Shown: piece by piece, positions 2,150 to 36,459 of the stretch
Position numbering within the stretch: the stretch's first letter is position 1
How the letters are laid out: the number at the start of each line of letters is the position of its first letter
NCBI GenBank assembly: GCA_947627455.1
Contig: CANQWC010000021.1
Coordinates: forward strand, 1-40,343
Reading direction: 5' to 3'
Source of the DNA: an uncultured Clostridia bacterium
Lineage (GTDB): Bacteria > Bacillota > Clostridia > Oscillospirales > Ruminococcaceae
DNA: 40,343 nt
Position numbers and translations under genes: made by a program
The notes under the pieces: generated by a model
What the model was told of the DNA's origin: nothing
Databases searched by the model: none
Seen by the model: the letters and a program-made list of their open reading frames with translations, nothing else

Positions 2150-3838
2150 ATGGCAAGAGTATCACGCAAGGCAAATACGGTGAAAAGTACCGAAAAGTCC
2201 GCGATGCGTATATGGAACACCGCCCTGTATATCCGTCTTTCCGTCGAGGACAACGGCAGGGATTCCGATTCACTGGAAAACCAGATGGCACTTCTTGAAA
2301 GATATGTCGCCGACCGTCCCGAGCTTAAAAGAGCCGGGCTGTTTTCTGACAACGGCTATACCGGCACAAACTTCGACCGTCCCGGATTTCAGCGAATGAT
2401 GTCGCAGGTCCAAGCGGGAAAGATAGACTGCATCGTCGTAAAAGACCTCTCCCGCCTCGGCAGGAATTATATCGAAACCTCGGAATTCATTGAGAAGATT
2501 GTTCCGTTCTTCGGGATAAGATTCATCTCGGTAAACGACGGCTTTGATACTGAAAAGTCGGCAGACGCAGCGCAGCTCACCGTATCGCTTCATAATATCG
2601 TCAACGATTACTATGCAAAGGACATTTCAAGAAAGGTCACGTCTGCACTTCGGGCAAAGATGGAACGCGGAGATTATATCGGAAACTACGCTCCATACGG
2701 CTATCAGAAAGACCCCGAGAATAAAAACAGGCTTATAATCTGCCCTGTGACGTCGCCCGTAATAAGAAAAATCTTTGAATGGCGCGCGGCAGGAGTAAGC
2801 TATATGGGAATCAACAGACGGTTAAACGACCTTGCAATTCCCTCACCGGGGCAGTACAGAGCAATCTGCGGAATTGAAACCAACAATAACAAAAAGCGGT
2901 CGGCGGTTCTTTGGAACAAGCACATGGTAACCGAGATACTTCAAAATGAAGTGTATATCGGTCACACCGTTCAAAGAAAAGGCAGTCAGTGTCTTTACGG
3001 CGGTATTCCCTTTCACGTCACCGGCAAAGATGAACAGATAACTGTCAACAATACCCACGAGCCGATTATAAGCGATGAACTGTTCTTTAAGGTTCAGAAC
3101 GTAAACAAAGAATCCGCGGAGCGTTCAAAAGCTTCGATCGGCAAGTACAGCAATCTGCCGAAGTCCGTAAATATCTACGGCAAAAAGTTTGTCTGCGGAG
3201 AATGTGGGAAGATAATGAAGCTTCATCGCTCAATATCCAAAAATGGCGATAAGGCATATTTCATGTTCAAATGCCCGACATACGCTGAACACGGCTCACG
3301 CGGCTGTTTTGATGTGAAGATGAAACAGTCGGAACTTGACAAAGCTGTGCTTAACTTTATCAAGGCTCAGATGGCGGTTTTTATTGACGCCGAGGATTCT
3401 ATCCGCAGGCTGTTATCCAAAAAAGAAGCCGCAGACGGCTCGGAAAAGGAAATAAAAGCCATAAAGCAAAAGCTCGACAGCAAAAATACACTTCTTCAAG
3501 GGCTTTATGTAGACCTTAAGGACGGATTTTTAAGTCAGGACGAATACCTCCACCACAGAACGGTCATTCAGTCGGACATTGAAACTTTGCAGGCACGTCT
3601 TGATGAGCTTGAAGCGGCAAAGAGCGAACTTGAAACTCAGATCACAGGCGAAGCAAAATGGCGGCAGCTTATTGAAAAATACTTTGCCGCCGAGGAAATG
3701 AGCGCAGAGATCGCCGACGCTTTTATTGATTCGATCGCCATTTATAAAGACGGCAGTCTGAAAATCCGACCGAAATACATGGACGAGCTTAAGGCTCTCA
3801 TGGAGCAGGCAGAACCGACAGCGGAGGTGGCGGTATGA
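2150..3838 (+). CDS. Large serine recombinase 2
   Basis: A 562-residue large serine recombinase. The catalytic motifs YIRLSVED (nucleophile serine) and DLSRLGRN are present. The zinc ribbon starts FVCGECGK, with further cysteines about 25-40 residues on, and is followed by a long Lys/Glu/Leu-rich coiled-coil segment. The start codon lies one base after the stop of recombinase 1, and its ribosome binding site (AAAGGAGG) is inside the end of that gene, so the two are probably translationally coupled. Its catalytic region lacks the short Lys/Asp/Ser insertion seen in recombinases 1 and 3, so it is not simply a recent duplicate. It may act alone, in a heteromeric complex, or only in one direction of recombination; the sequence cannot decide. 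Confidence 0.92.
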   Translation: MARVSRKANTVKSTEKSAMRIWNTALYIRLSVEDNGRDSDSLENQMALLERYVADRPELKRAGLFSDNGYTGTNFDRPGFQRMMSQVQAGKIDCIVVKDLSRLGRNYIETSEFIEKIVPFFGIRFISVNDGFDTEKSADAAQLTVSLHNIVNDYYAKDISRKVTSALRAKMERGDYIGNYAPYGYQKDPENKNRLIICPVTSPVIRKIFEWRAAGVSYMGINRRLNDLAIPSPGQYRAICGIETNNNKKRSAVLWNKHMVTEILQNEVYIGHTVQRKGSQCLYGGIPFHVTGKDEQITVNNTHEPIISDELFFKVQNVNKESAERSKASIGKYSNLPKSVNIYGKKFVCGECGKIMKLHRSISKNGDKAYFMFKCPTYAEHGSRGCFDVKMKQSELDKAVLNFIKAQMAVFIDAEDSIRRLLSKKEAADGSEKEIKAIKQKLDSKNTLLQGLYVDLKDGFLSQDEYLHHRTVIQSDIETLQARLDELEAAKSELETQITGEAKWRQLIEKYFAAEEMSAEIADAFIDSIAIYKDGSLKIRPKYMDELKALMEQAEPTAEVAV

Positions 3839-5391
3839 AAGAAAAATGTATTGCTGTATATCTTCGCCTTTCTTTGGAAGATGTGGACAAGCGCACCGAT
3901 TCCGTCAAGGACGACAGCAACAGCATAGTATCTCAAAGGCTGCTTATAAACCGCTGGCTCGACCTCAATCCAGAGTTGTCTAAGCTGAAAAGATTAGAGT
4001 TTTGCGATGACGGATTCACCGGCACGAACTTTTCAAGACCCGGCTTCACGAAAATGTTGGAACTCGCTAAAAGCGGAGAGATAGGCTGTGTCGCTGTAAA
4101 GGACCTCTCCCGCTTCGGCAGAGATTATCTTGAAGTCGGCGACTATCTTGAACATATCTTTCCTTTCCTCGGCATACGCTTTGTATCGGTCAACGACGGA
4201 TACGACAGCGAAAAGCACAGGGGCAGGACGGTCGGCATGGACGTGGCGTTTCGCAATCTGATATACGACTATTACAGCAAGGACTTATCCAAAAAGGTGA
4301 CAAGTGCCATGCGTATGAAGCAAAAAGAATGCGAATATGTCAGCTGCCCTCCGTATGGGTACAAGGTATCTCCCGAAAACAAGCACCGCCTTGTTATAGA
4401 CGAGCCTGCGGCTATGGTGGTAAGACGTATTTACCGCGACATAATTGACGGAAAGTCAAGCACGGAAGTCGCCAAGGCTTTGAACGAGGAGCATATATCT
4501 ACGCCCTCGGAATACAAAAAGCTTACCATTCAGCGAAACAAAGCTCCTCAGTGGACGCATACGCTAATTCTCGGCATGATTGAGAACATCAAGTATACAG
4601 GAACGATGGTGAATCACACCCGCGAAAGTCGGCATATCCGCGACAAAAGTCAGCGAAAAACCGACAAAAGCGAGTGGTACATCAAGGAAAACGCCCACCC
4701 GCCGATAATCTCTAAAGAGGAATACGACGCCGCTCTCGGTGCGATTCGCAGACGTCAGAAAAGCACATACAACAGTCATGACTTAACTGACAGGGTATTC
4801 TTCTGCGCTCACTGCGGGGCAAAGCTTGAAAAAGCAAACGGAACAGTCTTTGCCTGCCCCTCTCACAGATACCACGACAGCAGTCCTTGTGAAAATGTTC
4901 ATTGGCGCAAGACCGAGCTTGAGGAGGTTATCCTTGAAGCGCTGAAAAAACAGGTTCAGCTCATCAGAATTGAACGCACAAGGAAAGTTCAAAAGGAGCA
5001 GTCAAAGCTCGGTGAAACGGTTGCAAAGCTGTCTGCACTCAAAAAGCAGATAGAAGTTATTGACAGCGAGAAGTTTATTCTCTATGGACAGTACCGCGAG
5101 GGCAGCATGACCGCGGAGGAATATCTTGCAGCCAAGGAAACGCTGACAAAAAAGCAAGCCGACATAAAAGAACAGCTTACGGAGTGTGAGCGTCAGCTTG
5201 AACAGATGAAAACCCCAAACGCAACAGCCGAGCGGCAGGAGGAAGTAAACCGTTTCTGCGGCTTGTCCGACGAGCAGCTCAAAGAGCATTTATATGACGC
5301 TGTGGAAAAGGTCCTCCTCTACGATGCAAAGTCCATAGAGATTATTTGGAAATTCCACGATATGACGGTCGGATCAGCGGCGACCGTTTAG
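3835..5391 (+). CDS. Large serine recombinase 3
   Basis: A 518-residue large serine recombinase whose ATG overlaps the stop of recombinase 2 (ATGA), with GGAGGTGG just upstream. It carries YLRLSLED (nucleophile serine), DLSRFGRD, and a zinc ribbon starting FFCAHCGAK with two later cysteines. A coiled coil rich in K, E, Q and L fills the C-terminus. It is 45 residues shorter than its two neighbours but complete. Its stop codon lies inside the left arm of a 10-bp inverted repeat and only about 50 bases from the spoVT junction. That is the usual place for an integrase gene next to its attachment site, so this member is a good candidate for the integrase proper. Confidence 0.92.
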   Translation: MKEKCIAVYLRLSLEDVDKRTDSVKDDSNSIVSQRLLINRWLDLNPELSKLKRLEFCDDGFTGTNFSRPGFTKMLELAKSGEIGCVAVKDLSRFGRDYLEVGDYLEHIFPFLGIRFVSVNDGYDSEKHRGRTVGMDVAFRNLIYDYYSKDLSKKVTSAMRMKQKECEYVSCPPYGYKVSPENKHRLVIDEPAAMVVRRIYRDIIDGKSSTEVAKALNEEHISTPSEYKKLTIQRNKAPQWTHTLILGMIENIKYTGTMVNHTRESRHIRDKSQRKTDKSEWYIKENAHPPIISKEEYDAALGAIRRRQKSTYNSHDLTDRVFFCAHCGAKLEKANGTVFACPSHRYHDSSPCENVHWRKTELEEVILEALKKQVQLIRIERTRKVQKEQSKLGETVAKLSALKKQIEVIDSEKFILYGQYREGSMTAEEYLAAKETLTKKQADIKEQLTECERQLEQMKTPNATAERQEEVNRFCGLSDEQLKEHLYDAVEKVLLYDAKSIEIIWKFHDMTVGSAATV

Positions 5392-6363: not shown

Positions 6364-7287
6364 ATGATTACGACAGTAACTCTGAGCCCGTGCATCGACA
6401 AAACCGTCACGGTGAAGCAGTTCAACACTGACAGGACCAATCGCATTGAAAGCTCTCGGCTTGACGCAGGCGGAAAGGGTATAAACGTTTGCCTTGCGCT
6501 CTCTGCTCTTGATGTTGACAGCAGGGCGCTTTATTTCGACTTCGACGGCGGCGATATAATCACATCGGCGCTTGAAAAGGCGGGCGCCGAGGCCGAACAG
6601 GTCAAATGCGCGGGCCGAATCAGGACAAACCTTAAAATCTGCGATCTCTCAAACGAAAAGACGATCGAGCTTAACGAGCAGAACCCGACCGTCACCCTGA
6701 AATCGGTTCAAAAACTCATGGAGCTTATAAAGCTTGCCGCCGAAGACAGCAAGGTCATCGCCCTCTGCGGAAGCGTGCCCGCGGGCGTTCCGACCGATAT
6801 TTACAAACAGCTCACGCTTGCCGCGAAGAGCGTCAACCCGCGAATCAAAATTATCCTTGATTCCGAGGGCGAGCCTTTTCTTGAGGGGCTTTCGGCATCG
6901 CCATATCTTGTCAAGCCGAATCTTGAAGAGCTTGAGCGAACCTTTGGCAAAAGCCTTTCTTCCGACGCCGATATAATCGCGCTCGCCGAATCGGTGATAA
7001 AAAAATATTCGCTCGGCGTAATGCTTGTCTCGCTCGGCAGCGACGGTGCGATAGCCGTCACCAAGGACGGCGCAGTGCGCGCCAAGGCCCTCAAGGTCGC
7101 CCAGAAAAGCTCTACGGGCGCGGGCGACGCGATGGTTGCGGGCGCCTGCTTTGCGATTTCAAAGGGCCTCGGCGTAAGAGATATTTTGCGCTTCGGCACC
7201 TGCGCTGCCGCAGGCGCAGTCGAATGCGAGGGCACTTCGTTCTGCACCCGCGAGCGCTTTGAAGAGCTGTTCTCAAAGTTTGAGTGA
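6364..7287 (+). CDS. PfkB-family 1-phosphofructokinase / tagatose-6-phosphate kinase
   Basis: A 307-residue ribokinase-fold sugar-phosphate kinase, normal length for FruK/LacC. It begins MITTVTLSPCIDKTV, the typical FruK/LacC start. It contains the substrate-side signature LDAGGKGINVCLAL, the segment LCGSVPAG, VKPNLEELE, and the C-terminal ATP-site motif STGAGDAMVAG with the catalytic aspartate. It would phosphorylate fructose 1-phosphate (to fructose 1,6-bisphosphate) or tagatose 6-phosphate in the cytosol. The start is set at 6364 because GAGGTGA lies 5 bases upstream; an upstream in-frame extension has no ribosome binding site. Unusually, no fruA transporter or fruR regulator is adjacent, so it is a single-gene transcript and its exact substrate cannot be told from context. 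Confidence 0.88.
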   Translation: MITTVTLSPCIDKTVTVKQFNTDRTNRIESSRLDAGGKGINVCLALSALDVDSRALYFDFDGGDIITSALEKAGAEAEQVKCAGRIRTNLKICDLSNEKTIELNEQNPTVTLKSVQKLMELIKLAAEDSKVIALCGSVPAGVPTDIYKQLTLAAKSVNPRIKIILDSEGEPFLEGLSASPYLVKPNLEELERTFGKSLSSDADIIALAESVIKKYSLGVMLVSLGSDGAIAVTKDGAVRAKALKVAQKSSTGAGDAMVAGACFAISKGLGVRDILRFGTCAAAGAVECEGTSFCTRERFEELFSKFE

Positions 7288-7368
7288 GGAAGGGTTTTAT
7301 AAGAAACCTACTTTTTTAGCAAAAATAAGTTTAGGATCAAGCCCTTTACAAAGGGCTTGCAGGGGTCA

Positions 7369-7452
7369 ATGAAAGCTGGTTTTGTTGCTGCTCGCACTTC
7401 GCAATCGTAAACGATTGATTGCTCGTGCTTGCAGACAAAACCCCGCGTTCAT
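7369..7452 (+). repeat. Nested-hairpin module A, first copy
   Basis: The outer arms ATGAAAGC-GGTTTTGT and ACAAAACC-GCGTTCAT pair with each other and enclose an inner hairpin. The module aligns without gaps to 35414-35497. The outer parts are nearly identical, while the 20-base core (7402-7421) differs yet still pairs: CAATC with GATTG here, TGCCC with GGGCA there. It is inserted in repeat copy 1 but is absent from copy 2, so it behaves as a separable unit. Confidence 0.8.
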
Positions 7453-7496
7453 GAGGGCAGGCCCTTTGGTCGCGACCGCAGTCGCGAAACATCTAA

Positions 7497-7526
7497 AAAA
7501 GAGCACGCGGCCGAGCGTGCTCTTTT
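7497..7526. terminator. 12-bp terminator-like hairpin in repeat copy 1
   Basis: AAAAGAGCACGC (7497-7508) pairs perfectly with GCGTGCTCTTTT (7515-7526) around the loop GGCCGA, with A-runs and T-runs on both sides. It can act in both directions and is the best visible terminator for the kinase gene and possibly for the leftward LtaS-like gene. Confidence 0.7.
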
Positions 7527-7888
7527 TAAAAGCGTAAGCGAAACGCAGGAAGGGGAGGAGCAATCCGTTCGGTGAACGGTTGCGACGCGGGGGAACCCTC
7601 GTAGGGGGTGCCCCCGATTTTCGAGCGTTAGCGAGAAAATTTCCAGCCGCCGAGCTTGCGAGGCGGCCAGCACGGAAAGGGTGCGGGGAAACCCTGCAAG
7701 GGTGTCCCCACCGATTTTAATTAAGCCGGTTTAGGGAAACTATCTAAAGTTCAAAAGGTCGCTTTTGTCAGCGTCGTTCTGCAAAGGCTTGCGCCTTTGC
7801 CCGACTATCACGCTAAAACAACAAGGGTGTCCCCGCCAATTTGCCAAACAATATGAGAAATCTTCAACATACCATAGACCCTACCTCT

Positions 7889-9877
7889 TTATCCCCCGCT
7901 CCCCCTCTTTCCTTTCAGCTGGTAATATGTATAATAGTTATAAATATTGAGCACTTCGTCTGCGTAGGCGTCCTCGCGCTCGTTGAAAACGCTGAACCTG
8001 TCGTAATAGCCCCAAGTCGACATCGCGGGGGCGATGCCCTCGGCCTCTTTGATAAGCTGATACTCCTTCGAGAGCGGGATTCCCGCAGCTTCGAGGGTTT
8101 TAAGCCCGAGGAAGTTCGCGCTCGTGACGTTGTAATAGCTGCTTTCAAGCCCCGTGTCATAGTTCGACCAGATCACATATGGCGTTTCAAATCTCGTGAG
8201 ATATGAGTTCACAAAAAGTTCTCTCTGGGGTGCAAGCGCGTCGATAAGCTCAGCCTCGACGTTCGGCTGATGGTCGCCGAAGAAAACGATTATCGTCTTC
8301 TCGTCGACGTTTTCAAAATAGCTGATGAGCTCTTCAAGCGCCTCGTCCGAGTCTTTTATCAGCGAGAGATACTGCTCGGCACGCGGATAATACCCCTCGG
8401 GGCTTTTGATGTGAACATCGGCAACAAAGTCGTCGCCGTCATATTCATAGGTAGAGTGGTTCTGAACCGTCACACCGAAGACAAAGAGCGGGTCGTCGCC
8501 CTTGTTTTCAAACTGGTTGATGACCTCTTTATAGAAGAAGCTGTCGCTGATGAGCGTTCTGATGTATTCAACGTTGTCGCCGAAGCCCTTCTCCCATCTG
8601 TCGGCGCTGACATAAAGCCCCGCCTCGCCTGCGGCCATGTCCTCGCCGCTGATGAAGTCGTCGAAGCCCATGAATTTATATACCGAGTTCCTCTTCCAAC
8701 AGATCTCGTAAAACGGGTGCATCGCGACGGTTTTATAGCCGAATTTGTTGAGGTATGACGCCATCGAATCGACAGGCCCCGTGATGTGCTGCATATAGGC
8801 ATAGCAGCCCGACGGCATATACATCATCGAGAGCCCCGTGAGGAATTCAAACTCGGTATTGCAGGTGCCGCCGCCGAGGACCGAGACAAGGTTTCTTCCG
8901 CTCGGGTAGTCGTACGCAAGGCTGTTGAAGTATTTCATATAGGGCTCGGTGGTGCGAAGCCGCCCAAGGTATGAAAGATCCGAGAAGCTCTCGTTCATTA
9001 TAACGATGATGTTCGGGTATTCGGCGTTTTCGGGCGCGCTCGGCTCGTCGTATTTCGAGAGATAGTCGTTAAGCTTTTGCGCAGAGTAGCCCTCGGGCTG
9101 CTCGAATTTCATTTTTCTTAGGTTGATGTAAAAGTTCAGCGCGGTGCCGTTTACGTTGTTTGTCGACTCGGTGTCGAATGTCGAGGTCGAAAAGCTCTCA
9201 TAGTCGATGTTGTAAATCCCGACCGCCGCAATCGCAAATACTGCCGCCGTGACCGCCGCGACGCAGGGCCTGAGCCACTTTTTGGGGTATTCAAGCCTGA
9301 AATTCATCGCGAGCGCGACAAAGAATATACAGGTCACAAGCCCCGTCAGCATATCTGAGTTGAAGTGCCAGTCTGAGGCGGTCGTGACCTTCATCGCGGT
9401 GGATATCGCGTAAAGATCTGTCGGCACTATCGGCGTTCCGCGAATCAACAAAACTATCTCGTTCGCAAAATTTAAAACCGTCGCAAGTCCGACCGTCAGG
9501 CAGACAGAAAATCTTGTCGACTGAGTGACCAAAAAGAACAAAAGCTGGAAAAACGCGTAGATACAAAGGTTGTAAAGATAGATGCTGTCCGCATATTTCT
9601 GAACCCCGATGATGAGCATGACCGTTTCAAGCGATATCCACGGGCAGAGCAGGAATATCGCCGCCGAAGCAAGCCCCGAGTAAACCTTCGGAAGCCTGAT
9701 TCTGACAGTCAGAATACCCGACATCGCGGTAAAAAGCGCCAAAAAGCGGATTATCGCGAACGTGTCGGGTATTCCGTCGGGTGAAAATGATTCAACGTTA
9801 TAAAGGGCGACGAGCGCCGTCAGAATTATGACGGCGACCCCTGCCCAAAGGCTTTTTCCTCTGCGAAACTCTATCAT
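7889..9877 (-). CDS. LtaS-like membrane sulfatase (phosphoglycerol transferase family)
   Basis: A 662-residue protein with about five N-terminal membrane segments (roughly residues 10-220), then an extracellular alkaline-phosphatase/sulfatase-fold domain (about 280-610). Visible motifs are IIVIMNESFSD (metal ligand region), GGGTCNTEFEFLTG (the Thr is the expected nucleophile), AMHPF, VTVQNHSTY and FFGDHQPN (metal-binding Asp/His). The family transfers glycerol-phosphate or similar groups from lipid donors onto glycolipids or cell-wall glycans. It is the second gene of a leftward operon, 6 bases after the CotH-domain gene. The ribosome binding site at the start is weak. The substrate is not defined: it could make lipoteichoic acid or modify another surface polymer. 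Confidence 0.87.
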   Translation of the reverse strand: MIEFRRGKSLWAGVAVIILTALVALYNVESFSPDGIPDTFAIIRFLALFTAMSGILTVRIRLPKVYSGLASAAIFLLCPWISLETVMLIIGVQKYADSIYLYNLCIYAFFQLLFFLVTQSTRFSVCLTVGLATVLNFANEIVLLIRGTPIVPTDLYAISTAMKVTTASDWHFNSDMLTGLVTCIFFVALAMNFRLEYPKKWLRPCVAAVTAAVFAIAAVGIYNIDYESFSTSTFDTESTNNVNGTALNFYINLRKMKFEQPEGYSAQKLNDYLSKYDEPSAPENAEYPNIIVIMNESFSDLSYLGRLRTTEPYMKYFNSLAYDYPSGRNLVSVLGGGTCNTEFEFLTGLSMMYMPSGCYAYMQHITGPVDSMASYLNKFGYKTVAMHPFYEICWKRNSVYKFMGFDDFISGEDMAAGEAGLYVSADRWEKGFGDNVEYIRTLISDSFFYKEVINQFENKGDDPLFVFGVTVQNHSTYEYDGDDFVADVHIKSPEGYYPRAEQYLSLIKDSDEALEELISYFENVDEKTIIVFFGDHQPNVEAELIDALAPQRELFVNSYLTRFETPYVIWSNYDTGLESSYYNVTSANFLGLKTLEAAGIPLSKEYQLIKEAEGIAPAMSTWGYYDRFSVFNEREDAYADEVLNIYNYYTYYQLKGKRGSGG

Positions 9878-19253: not shown

Positions 19254-19295
19254 GGCAGGGAAGCTGTAAGACTTAAAAACTAAAAGTTTTCGCTT

Positions 19296-19742
19296 GAGCC
19301 TTTTACAAAAGGCTCACGAGAGTCCAGAGGCGAGCAGCCTCTGGTCGCGCTCCGCAGAGCGCGAAACACCCAAAAAAGAGCACGCGACCGAGCGTGCTCT
19401 TTTAAAAATGAAAAAAGATCAGGAGGGTAGCCCGAATCAGTCCAGTGGACTGTTCGGGCGCAGGGGACCCTATCAAGGGGTCTCCTGATTTGCCGAGCGA
19501 TGAGCGAGGCAAATTTTTCAGGGTGCAATGTAGCCCCGCTGAGCGAAGCGAGGCGGCTTGTGCACGGAAAGGGTTCGGGGAAACCCGGCATGGGTGTCCC
19601 CGCCAACAAAAACGCATAGTGGGCACGGGAAAACAAACGACGCCCTTTCCAGAGTGCAAAAAGTCGCATTCGTCAGCGTCGTTCTGCAAAGGCTTGCGCC
19701 TTTGCCCAACAGACTTCCTAAAACAATATGGATGTCCCCGCA
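19296..19742 (+). repeat. Mosaic structured repeat, copy 2
   Basis: This convergent gap has no credible gene; it repeats the hairpin order of 7339-7842 without module A. Stems: GAGCCTTTT/AAAAGGCTC (19296-19315), CAGAGGC/GCCTCTG, CGCGCTC/GAGCGCG around CGCA, a 12-bp stem (19374-19403), CCCGAA-T-CAGTCC/GGACTG-TTCGGG (19431-19458), AGGGGACCC/GGGTCTCCT, ATTTGCC/GGCAAAT (19488-19514), and the GGGGAAACCC/GGGTGTCCCC stem. The block CAGCGTCGTTCTGCAAAGG (19674-19692) is identical to copy 1. Stem bases differ from copy 1 but pairing is kept. Confidence 0.8.
19374..19403. terminator. 12-bp terminator-like hairpin in repeat copy 2
   Basis: AAAAGAGCACGC (19374-19385) pairs with GCGTGCTCTTTT (19392-19403), loop GACCGA. 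It is the same as the hairpin at 7497-7526 except for one loop base. It probably ends the XRE gene transcript. Confidence 0.7.
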
Positions 19743-19830
19743 AAAAAATCAGAGGGAAGTCAGGGGCACCCTGCGGGTTCCCCCGAACCCCCTCCGCACT
19801 GCCGCCTCGCTTCGCTCGGCGATTTAAGGT
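19743..19830 (-). repeat. Inverted partial copy of the mosaic repeat
   Basis: GCCGCCTCGCTTCGCTCGGCG (19801-19821) is the reverse complement, with one mismatch, of the stem near 19536-19556, and GGGGCACCC/GGGTTCCCC forms another hairpin. This fragment of the family lies in the opposite orientation immediately after copy 2, before the terminator of the leftward FN3 gene. Confidence 0.6.
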
Positions 19831-19862
19831 GCTCATCTTTGACAATAACCTCTACACATTCG

Positions 19863-33651: not shown

Positions 33652-33764
33652 GCCTCACGGAGCCCGCCTCAGCGGGCTCCCATGAACGCGGTTTTTGTCC
33701 AAGAGGACGAGCGGGCGGGCGTTTATGCCCGCGAAGTCCGATTGGCTACAAAAACCGCGTTCAT
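33652..33764 (+). repeat. Nested-hairpin module A with perfect 17-bp outer stem
   Basis: GGAGCCCGC/GCGGGCTCC forms a first hairpin (33658-33679). Then ATGAACGCGGTTTTTGT (33682-33698) and ACAAAAACCGCGTTCAT (33748-33764) are perfect 17-bp inverted repeats enclosing CCAA/TTGG, GGAC/GTCC and GCGGGC/GCCCGC nested stems. The outer arms match module A at 7369 and 35414. Bases 33652-33697 also match, inverted, 35754-35803. Confidence 0.8.
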
Positions 33765-35412: not shown

Positions 35413-35498
35413 AATGAAAGCCGGTTTTGTTGCTGCTCGCACTTCGTGCCCGTTTGGTATTGGGCACTCGTGCTTGCAGACAAAGCCCGGCGTTCATG
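35413..35498 (+). repeat. Nested-hairpin module A, second colinear copy
   Basis: Aligns without gaps to 7368-7453 (86 bases each). Conserved outer parts include GGTTTTGTTGCTGCTCGCAC and CTCGTGCTTGCAGACAAA. The inner 20 bases (35447-35466) are unlike copy 1, but TGCCC and GGGCA pair in exactly the same columns as CAATC and GATTG there. Confidence 0.8.
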
Positions 35499-36079: not shown

Positions 36080-36132
36080 CAAAAAAGACGCCCTTCGGAC
36101 GTCATTCTTGCTGGTGGGAGAGAATGGATTTG
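36080..36132 (-). other. Duplicate of the tRNA-Tyr 3' end and its terminator
   Basis: These 53 bases match 36343-36395 with one mismatch (36104). They cover the terminator hairpin, the encoded CCA, the 3' acceptor strand and part of the T arm of tRNA-Tyr. The rest of the tRNA is absent. Such a copy is what integration of an element at a tRNA 3' end leaves, but a local duplication is also possible. Confidence 0.7.
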
Positions 36133-36343
36133 TAACCCTGGCAGAAGCGTTAAAACTTACTTTTCGGGCTTCGCAATCGTGAACGATTGATTGCTCGCCC
36201 TCAAAGAGTTTTAATCGCGTCTGCGCATCAAAGCGCTCGTACTTTCCGTCATCTCCTCACATCGCAATCACTGCGCTTTTGAGCGCCCGGATAACTATTC
36301 AGGCGCTTTGAGCAATACTTCTCACCAAACCCCCGCCATCAGC
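36133..36343. repeat. Nested hairpins between the two tRNA-Tyr 3' copies
   Basis: TTAAAACT and AGTTTTAA enclose GGGC/GCCC and the core CGCAATCGTGAACGATTG, which is the same inner hairpin as module A copy 1 (7401-7417) apart from one base. The region then carries CAAAGCGCTC and GCGCTTTGAG motifs. No gene is present. Confidence 0.55.
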
Positions 36344-36369
36344 AAAAAAGACGCCCTTCGGACGTCTTT
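36344..36369 (-). terminator. Terminator of the tRNA-Thr/tRNA-Tyr operon
   Basis: On the minus strand AAGACG-T-CC pairs with GG-CGTCTT around GAAG, followed by a T-run. It lies 6 bases after the tRNA-Tyr CCA. Confidence 0.85.
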
Positions 36370-36374
36370 CTTGC

Positions 36375-36459
36375 TGGTGGGAGAGAATGGATTTGAACCA
36401 TTGAAGCGAAACGCAACAGATTTACAGTCTGCCCCCTTTGGCCACTCGGGAACTCTCCC
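36375..36459 (-). tRNA. tRNA-Tyr (anticodon GTA)
   Basis: 85 bases including an encoded CCA. The acceptor stem GGGAGAG/CTCTCCC, the anticodon stem-loop CAGACTGTAAATCTG with anticodon GTA, a long class II variable arm, and the T arm GGTTCAAATCC are all visible. The long variable arm fits bacterial tRNA-Tyr. Confidence 0.95.

Follow-up and report, generated by a model that had tools for sequence, protein, structure and literature searches.

REP units are known to form dimers, among them tail-to-tail ones and heterodimers whose units differ in their stems (PMC3733652). The pneumococcal BOX element is modular, with boxA, boxB, and boxC, and the authors of that description regard BOX, RUP, and SPRITE as parasitic (PMC3049150). 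Similarly, bcr1, Clop-1, and Clot-1 are multi-copy folded repeats, some of them in Clostridium, and the available part of their description gives sizes of 31–167 for Bacillus and Clostridium (PMC2267715). The repeat family analysed here resembles REP dimers and BIMEs in consisting of dispersed palindromes that occur as singles and dimers, with its inverted dimers tail-to-tail in 15 of 15 cases, but REP and BIME units are described as 20–40 bp with one stem of 5–13 bp, whereas the matched arms of this family measure 134–289 nt and carry several hairpins each (122 matches). Unlike REP and BIME units, its arms have no GTAG/CGTC tag in the outer consensus AAAATTAAAAGTTTTCG of 105 arms, a comparison that covers the outer ends, and unlike the RAYT-linked REP and BIME systems it occurs in a genome (G000; 1.99 Mb, 40 contigs) with no Y1 transposase. 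The family is like MITEs in being non-coding and highly paired with terminal inverted repeats, but unlike them it is not AT-rich (arm G+C of 0.49–0.66 in the 122 matches) and has two arm clades in a fixed inverted order. It is also modular like BOX, a likeness that rests on the description in PMC3049150, and a multi-copy folded repeat like bcr1, Clop-1, and Clot-1, although larger than 31–167 when compared by description. Because it departs from REP and BIME in size, tag, and transposase and from MITEs in AT-richness, the family is set apart from both; it works like a BIME or a MITE but is larger and is a member of neither. No description of it was found in the open-access papers searched, from which the motif CCTTTTTCAAAAGG was also absent, and a description elsewhere is possible.

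Two copies lie in the window, which is the whole 40,343-nt stretch of DNA analysed here, and with a probability of about 70% each of them is a type-1 arm belonging to a mobile palindromic DNA repeat that is non-coding and non-autonomous. Copy 1 (7319..7640, + strand) runs from an A-rich outer end to hairpin F and was recognised by a match of 110 bits to covariance model R1 and by its placement on the tree; the match itself spans 7327–7615, and the outer end is set by the 105-arm consensus. Copy 2 (19275..19514, +), from A to F, scores 114 bits with a model match at 19284–19487 and is likewise type 1 on the tree. The two copies match each other by blastn (E 1.8e-43) in an alignment that is a mosaic. 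The initial annotation had reported paired stem differences between them, and every stem it quoted is present in the DNA. Hairpin A of copy 1 (7338..7359, +; CAAGCCCTTT/AAAGGGCTTG), which is helix 1 of alignment A4 with 99.0% of cells paired, has the stem AAGCCC/GGGCTT at 7339–7358, against GAGCCT/AGGCTC at 19296–19315 within hairpin A of copy 2 (19295..19316, +). Hairpin D has the stem GCAA-T-CCGTTC/GAACGG-TTGC in copy 1 (7560..7583, +; helices 4–6 of A4, 98–99% of cells paired) and CCCGAA-T-CAGTCC/GGACTG-TTCGGG in copy 2 (19431..19458, +), with an identical bulged T. Similarly, hairpin F has ATTTTC/GAAAAT in copy 1 (7617..7640, +) against ATTTGCC/GGCAAAT in copy 2 (19488..19514, +), both copies being assigned from sequence and RNA fold, as is hairpin E (7589..7615, + and 19461..19487, +).

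The same order of hairpins had also been claimed, but the order is not identical, the copies differing at hairpin B. This hairpin is intact in copy 2 (19324..19344, +; CCAGAGGC/GCCTCTGG), whereas copy 1 has lost its 5' part to module I, a nested 85-nt palindromic repeat (7369..7453, +) that is absent from copy 2, and retains the loop and 3' arm (7455..7468, +), identified by eye against intact B hairpins elsewhere. Module I also occurs in the window at 35414–35498 (+) and 33681–33764 (-) and at other loci. It inserts into other repeats, and its outer stem seems, by eye, to vary in a paired way between genomes (L145, L284, L103). Hairpin C follows in copy 1 as TCGCGAC-CGCA-GTCGCGA (7470..7487, +) and in copy 2 at 19345..19364 (+). 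Hairpin T (7495..7527 in copy 1; 19372..19404 in copy 2; neither strand assigned) consists in copy 1 of an A-run, GAGCACGCG/CGTGCTC, and a T-run and is terminator-like on both strands; hairpin S of copy 1 (7531..7548, +), GCGT/ACGC, was assigned from sequence and RNA fold. Beyond F, copy 1 continues in further repeat modules (7641..7842, +) that occupy the place of the type-2 arm in composite copies, with V at ~7645–7712 and the D-module at 7741–7842 on the blastn module map. The modules after F in copy 2 (19548..19836) are of mixed orientation, with V (+) at 19548–19604, the D-module (+) at 19653–19744, and V reversed at 19763–19836. Elsewhere in the same genome, a stretch of ~3.4 kb near a contig start (L030:844-4258, G000:C4) is filled with V and D modules that all point the same way and form an array of another repeat family. 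RNA folding of copy 1 (7454–7645) gives z = -4.9 and of copy 2 (19284–19520) z = -9.85, values that none of 200 shuffles equalled for either copy, and folding copy 2 as DNA gives z = -11.3.

Across 122 oriented copies (99 loci, E up to 1e-10), the arm order is an A-rich end followed by hairpins A, B, C, S, D, E, and F. The loop of hairpin C is CCGCAG, and its stem is Watson-Crick in 700 of 711 pairs (106 oriented C hairpins); the loop of hairpin D is NGT, with the bulged T in some copies. Hairpin T, where present, stands between C and S and is confined to type-1 arms, being carried by 20 of 26 in G000, 3 of 15 in G017, and 0 of 25 elsewhere, and by 0 of 52 type-2 arms. On the tree the arms fall into two clades, type 1 (66) and type 2 (52), separated by one branch with an SH-aLRT of 99; 4 of the 122 arms were left untyped, although visual inspection assigns one of them (L284) to type 2. 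Opposite-facing neighbours within 800 bp are tail-to-tail in 15 of 15 cases, and 14 of the 15 were scored as type 1 plus type 2; three tandem ++ pairs and one tandem -- pair were found in addition. Public loci hold 12 close tail-to-tail pairs (one of them a G017 place already counted), no head-to-head pair, and one tandem pair. The boundary of an arm is sharp on its outer side, where the anchor present in 105 of the 122 arms yields a consensus that fades ~11 nt before GTTTT. In composites the hairpin-A ends face outward on both sides as terminal inverted repeats, and the distance between end motifs is 435 to 707 bp where both anchors are present (n = 14), the longest containing nested modules; other repeats are nested inside arms as well. 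A giant foldback of matching ends was considered and rejected, since the A stems of both ends are equal in 3 of 15 composites, with 5.1 expected by chance. At one locus of a related genus (L080:1420-1790), a copy is flanked on both sides by one and the same kind of terminator-like hairpin, ~26 nt long and present twice, and inverted TGTYGAAAAAG-like motifs stand immediately within this pair (by eye).

Copies 1 and 2 are members of a large repeat family that is dispersed in the DNA of gut bacteria. In G000, blastn finds 88 matching pieces, and the covariance-model search of the genome and its relatives that the initial annotation had proposed returned many matches, with model R1, built from 16 copies, giving at least 46 in G000 (46 of 46 scored candidates; 723 candidates in a first pass). 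Of 60 genomes searched, R1 scores positive in 21, counting G000. Among 31 genomes of the genus, 14 give strong matches, G008 gives one weak match, and the remaining 16 give no match. The repeat thus tracks a portion of the genus instead of jumping freely, which weighs against the mobile reading. A search of 291 genomes of the class yielded 14 positives. Scores outside the genus reach at most 151 bits in another genus of the same family, at most 89 bits in one other family, and at most 50 bits in the remaining ones. The carriers seem to be the nearer relatives, because a DNA search with the kinase gene beside copy 1 matched 12 relatives, all of them carriers. Exact hairpin-A motifs number 41 in G000, 45 in G017, 21 in G010, 18 in G003, 18 in G044, 12 in G011, 7 in G019, 4 in G004, and 0 in the carrier G018 and in four non-carriers, while the motif read backward as a control gives 0, against 41 in G000 and 45 in G017. 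In public genome contigs a terminator-anchored pattern gave 0 matches, and a looser pattern, which covers hairpin A alone, matched at least 118 stretches of public genomes and one viral contig; the genomic matches listed are mostly from uncultured Clostridia or from Ruminococcus, Acutalibacter, and Neglectibacter, with one labelled Bacteroidales. In 100 of these at least 118 loci, R1 gave 118 matches at E 1e-4, many of them weak. At one locus of Neglectibacter timonensis (L175:4578-4928), five hairpin-A motifs stand in tandem at ~81-nt spacing. The candidate undescribed family of the initial annotation has no match in Rfam 15, which at gathering score finds two tRNAs in the window and nothing else; the top sub-threshold match at 7280–7900 is ylbH, with 16.4 bits against 50 required, and in seven relative loci one match exceeds its gathering score, a T-box that lies outside the element (L060:1170-1389).

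Presence and absence of the repeat can be followed at the site of copy 1, where the gap between the kinase and sulfatase genes is 601 nt in G000 against 73 nt in G010, 76 nt in G016, 68 nt in G011, and 59 nt in G003, all four without the element; these are the 4 of 12 relatives whose fetched stretch shows both genes, the stretches of the other 8 showing no sulfatase gene beside the kinase. One of the 12, G019, has a weak arm match of 39 bits directly after the kinase gene (L103:1241-1432). Its A stem equals that of copy 1, and an insert resembling module I interrupts it at the corresponding position, so that it may represent the same old insertion, since lost elsewhere, or an independent gain. 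This combination of A stem and module I is found at a further site in G000 as well (L025). No arm match follows the kinase gene in G017 or G010, and in G003 an arm lies on the opposite side of the gene (L102:2514-2678); kinase identity to G000 is 70% in G017, 67% in G010, and 52% in G019. Copy 1 may thus be a gain or an old insertion followed by losses, but G017 and G010, with no arm there, have kinases nearer to that of G000 than the kinase of G019 is. Copies cluster by genome, with 27 label changes on the tree of 122 copies against 61.3 in shuffles, of which 0 of 200 were as low. Hairpin-A matches fall inside a called gene in 4 of 136 cases, the calls having been made with an in-house codon-usage script rather than a standard gene finder. 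Weighing against the mobile reading, no target-site duplication rose above shuffles at k = 2–9 in 14 composites, a comparison of low power. In the loci read, no two arms enclose a gene as those of an autonomous copy would. Three enzymes were rejected as mobilisers: a RAYT/Y1 transposase (PF01797, RAYT/IS200-type), with 0 matches in the 99.4% complete G000 and a control positive in 5 of 14 known genomes; reverse transcriptase (PF00078), present in 6 of 14 carriers and 4 of 17 other genomes of the genus; and IS110 (PF01548), above cut-off in 5 of 31 genomes (carriers G003, G004, G010, and G017 and non-carrier G041) but not in G000. The distribution of the latter two families does not match that of the repeat.

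The gene context bears on an unlikely alternative, in which the repeat is a domesticated terminator or mRNA 3'-end cassette and selection for ending or protecting upstream transcripts keeps its hairpins perfect. Both copies sit between converging genes, as had been noted at the outset, with a pfkB-family kinase and a sulfatase gene flanking copy 1 and genes for an HTH protein and an fn3 protein flanking copy 2. Hairpin T is terminator-like, with its A and T runs, and 56 of 92 solo arms have a same-strand upstream gene (31 opposite, 5 unknown), which is the lean that a 3'-end role would give; 41 of these 56 start at most 100 nt from the called end of that gene. The lean holds within tandem genes (24 same-strand against 15) and elsewhere (77 against 41). 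The short gap in the four relatives also contains a small hairpin (by eye), and terminator-like hairpins of the same loci share a feature of stem evolution with the arms, as described below. Against this reading, of the 87 solo arms whose upstream gene is known, 31 are oriented opposite to that gene, hairpin T is missing from all type-2 arms and from all type-1 arms outside G000 and G017, and the kinase gene seems to keep a terminator of its own ahead of the element (7291–7317, by eye). Composites show no upstream bias and occur in all gene contexts (+- 3, -+ 4, -- 5, ++ 2, ?- 1).

The initial annotation had taken the compensatory changes to mean selection on a structure, as in a functional RNA or a structured mobile repeat, and of these the mobile repeat stands, whereas selection on a functional RNA is not supported. 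According to the latter reading, which is improbable, a small RNA or cis element spread in many copies and its stems co-vary for RNA folding. The covariation is real, with two-sided changes at 38 of 44 pairs and a score of 0.418 against 0.152 in shuffled and at most 0.08 in slid alignments, a level reached by 0 of 500 shuffles, in an alignment that was fitted to the model. The conserved loops with their fixed orientation and the bias to same-strand upstream genes also favour an RNA. In 82 copies, forward and inverted loops number 66/0 for C, 43/0 for B, 63/2 for D, 39/3 for A, and 5/0 for one E loop, and this nearly constant orientation hints at recognition of the loop sequence. G-U pairs, however, are no commoner than A-C, unlike in tRNA. 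Hairpins A–E contain 4846 Watson-Crick pairs, 63 G-U, 58 A-C, and 120 other mismatches, and A–D, without the less well aligned E, contain 3814, 23, 23, and 32, respectively, with hairpin C, which is split in the model alignment, counted on ungapped sequence (with gaps the count is G-U 29, A-C 20, and other 91). Unoriented counts over all loci give G-U 22 and A-C 21, leaving out one mis-specified loop with 30 A-C; in 82 oriented copies, hairpins A–D give G-U 3 and A-C 8 and other loops G-U 9 and A-C 1. By comparison, 20 tRNAs from the same loci, the sole positive control, show 391 Watson-Crick pairs, 28 G-U, 0 A-C, and 0 other, with pairs taken from the structure that ARAGORN itself assigns, a possible bias towards G-U. 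In addition, 93 terminator-like hairpins of the same loci have G-U 17 and A-C 17, so the wobble test excludes tRNA-like evolution and not every RNA role, such as that of a terminator. Since an A-C mismatch reads as G-T on the complementary strand, the constraint looks strand-symmetric.

Stem changes between related copies are similarly at odds with an RNA that is repaired pair by pair. For hairpins A, B, and D, double and single pair changes stand at 28:2 below 5% unpaired divergence (9 copy pairs) and at 239:37 at 5–10% (74 copy pairs), with ratios of 5.9–8.0 in the other bins, the copy pairs in the bins not being independent; of the 13 hairpins that changed in the lowest bin, 10 did so at 2–3 base pairs together. 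Double changes prevail at every divergence and thus look like block replacement, and their excess at low divergence speaks against stepwise compensation, as a stepwise route would start with single changes. The pairing of hairpin D is also kept beyond the terminator-like hairpin T found inside most G000 type-1 arms, with 220 of 224 cells Watson-Crick in all type-1 arms that carry T against 396 of 402 in T-less arms, while E is paired a little less well beyond T (210 of 225) than in T-less arms (410 of 424). Selection on a functional RNA is therefore left without support by five lines of evidence, namely the presence and absence of the element, with the copy-1 site empty in four syntenic relatives, the clustering by genome, the lack of wobble preference, the double changes, and the pairing of D beyond T, and the composites in all gene contexts also argue against it. 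Few stem alleles exist per hairpin, C having 10 among 106. Allele association within G000, in tests of low power (n 21–34), is not significant for A-D (p 0.76), B-D (0.78), A-C (0.32), and C-D (0.31) and is present for D-T (p 0.0025), B-T (0.014), A-B (0.03), and B-C (0.05). The few and mostly unassociated alleles are a further departure from stepwise RNA evolution, whereas the associations of some neighbouring modules weigh against the mobile reading.

Least probable of all is that the covariation is mainly mutational, with template switching during replication rewriting one hairpin arm from the other in an unselected structure, for although the multi-base double changes lack G-U intermediates, the process is described as making multi-base compensatory changes and as making and mending perfect stems (PMC8794818), and the loop of the neighbouring V module occurs in both orientations (GAAG, TTCG; by eye), loop inversion, rejected as a sign of it here, is nearly absent from the hairpins counted, and the recurrence of few stem alleles across copies is explained more simply by exchange between copies.

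The mobile DNA repeat can be given a mechanism, which is offered tentatively, as plausible though short of probable: a two-armed element whose hairpin strings are read by an enzyme, and whose stems are rewritten as units by recombination or template switching, would show covariation without RNA selection. On the mobile-repeat reading judged probable above, a complete element consists of a type-1 and a type-2 arm joined tail-to-tail, ~435–530 bp without nested inserts, with the similar A-rich ends facing outward as terminal inverted repeats. An enzyme supplied in trans may recognise the folded or inverted ends and copy arms or pairs of arms into intergenic DNA. Recombination between dispersed copies would exchange whole hairpins, and template switching from arm to arm may help to keep stems perfect, so that paired base changes would arise and persist at the DNA level. 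Arms with hairpin T that land after a gene may act as its terminator, as a by-product.

Covariation is a main line of evidence for new structured RNAs, and here it is overwhelming, yet its pattern points to mobile DNA. If stems are indeed rewritten as units, such mobile DNA would give rise in nature to false structured-RNA families. A count of G-U against A-C and the ratio of double to single changes at low divergence are simple checks for other candidate RNAs. The family is a large repeat load for a group of Clostridia, and no candidate mobiliser enzyme was found among the families sought.

Other features of the window include a large serine recombinase gene at 448–2148, with Resolvase, Recombinase, zinc-ribbon, and DUF4368 domains. 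Direct repeats of 68–73% identity at 1.7 kb spacing suggest that 2150–3838 and 3835–5391 are paralogues. In addition, a 53-nt direct repeat (36080–36132 and 36343–36395; 98% identical, 263 nt apart) overlaps the end of a tRNA gene (36378–36459, -) and resembles the borders that a small element leaves when it has been integrated or lost.
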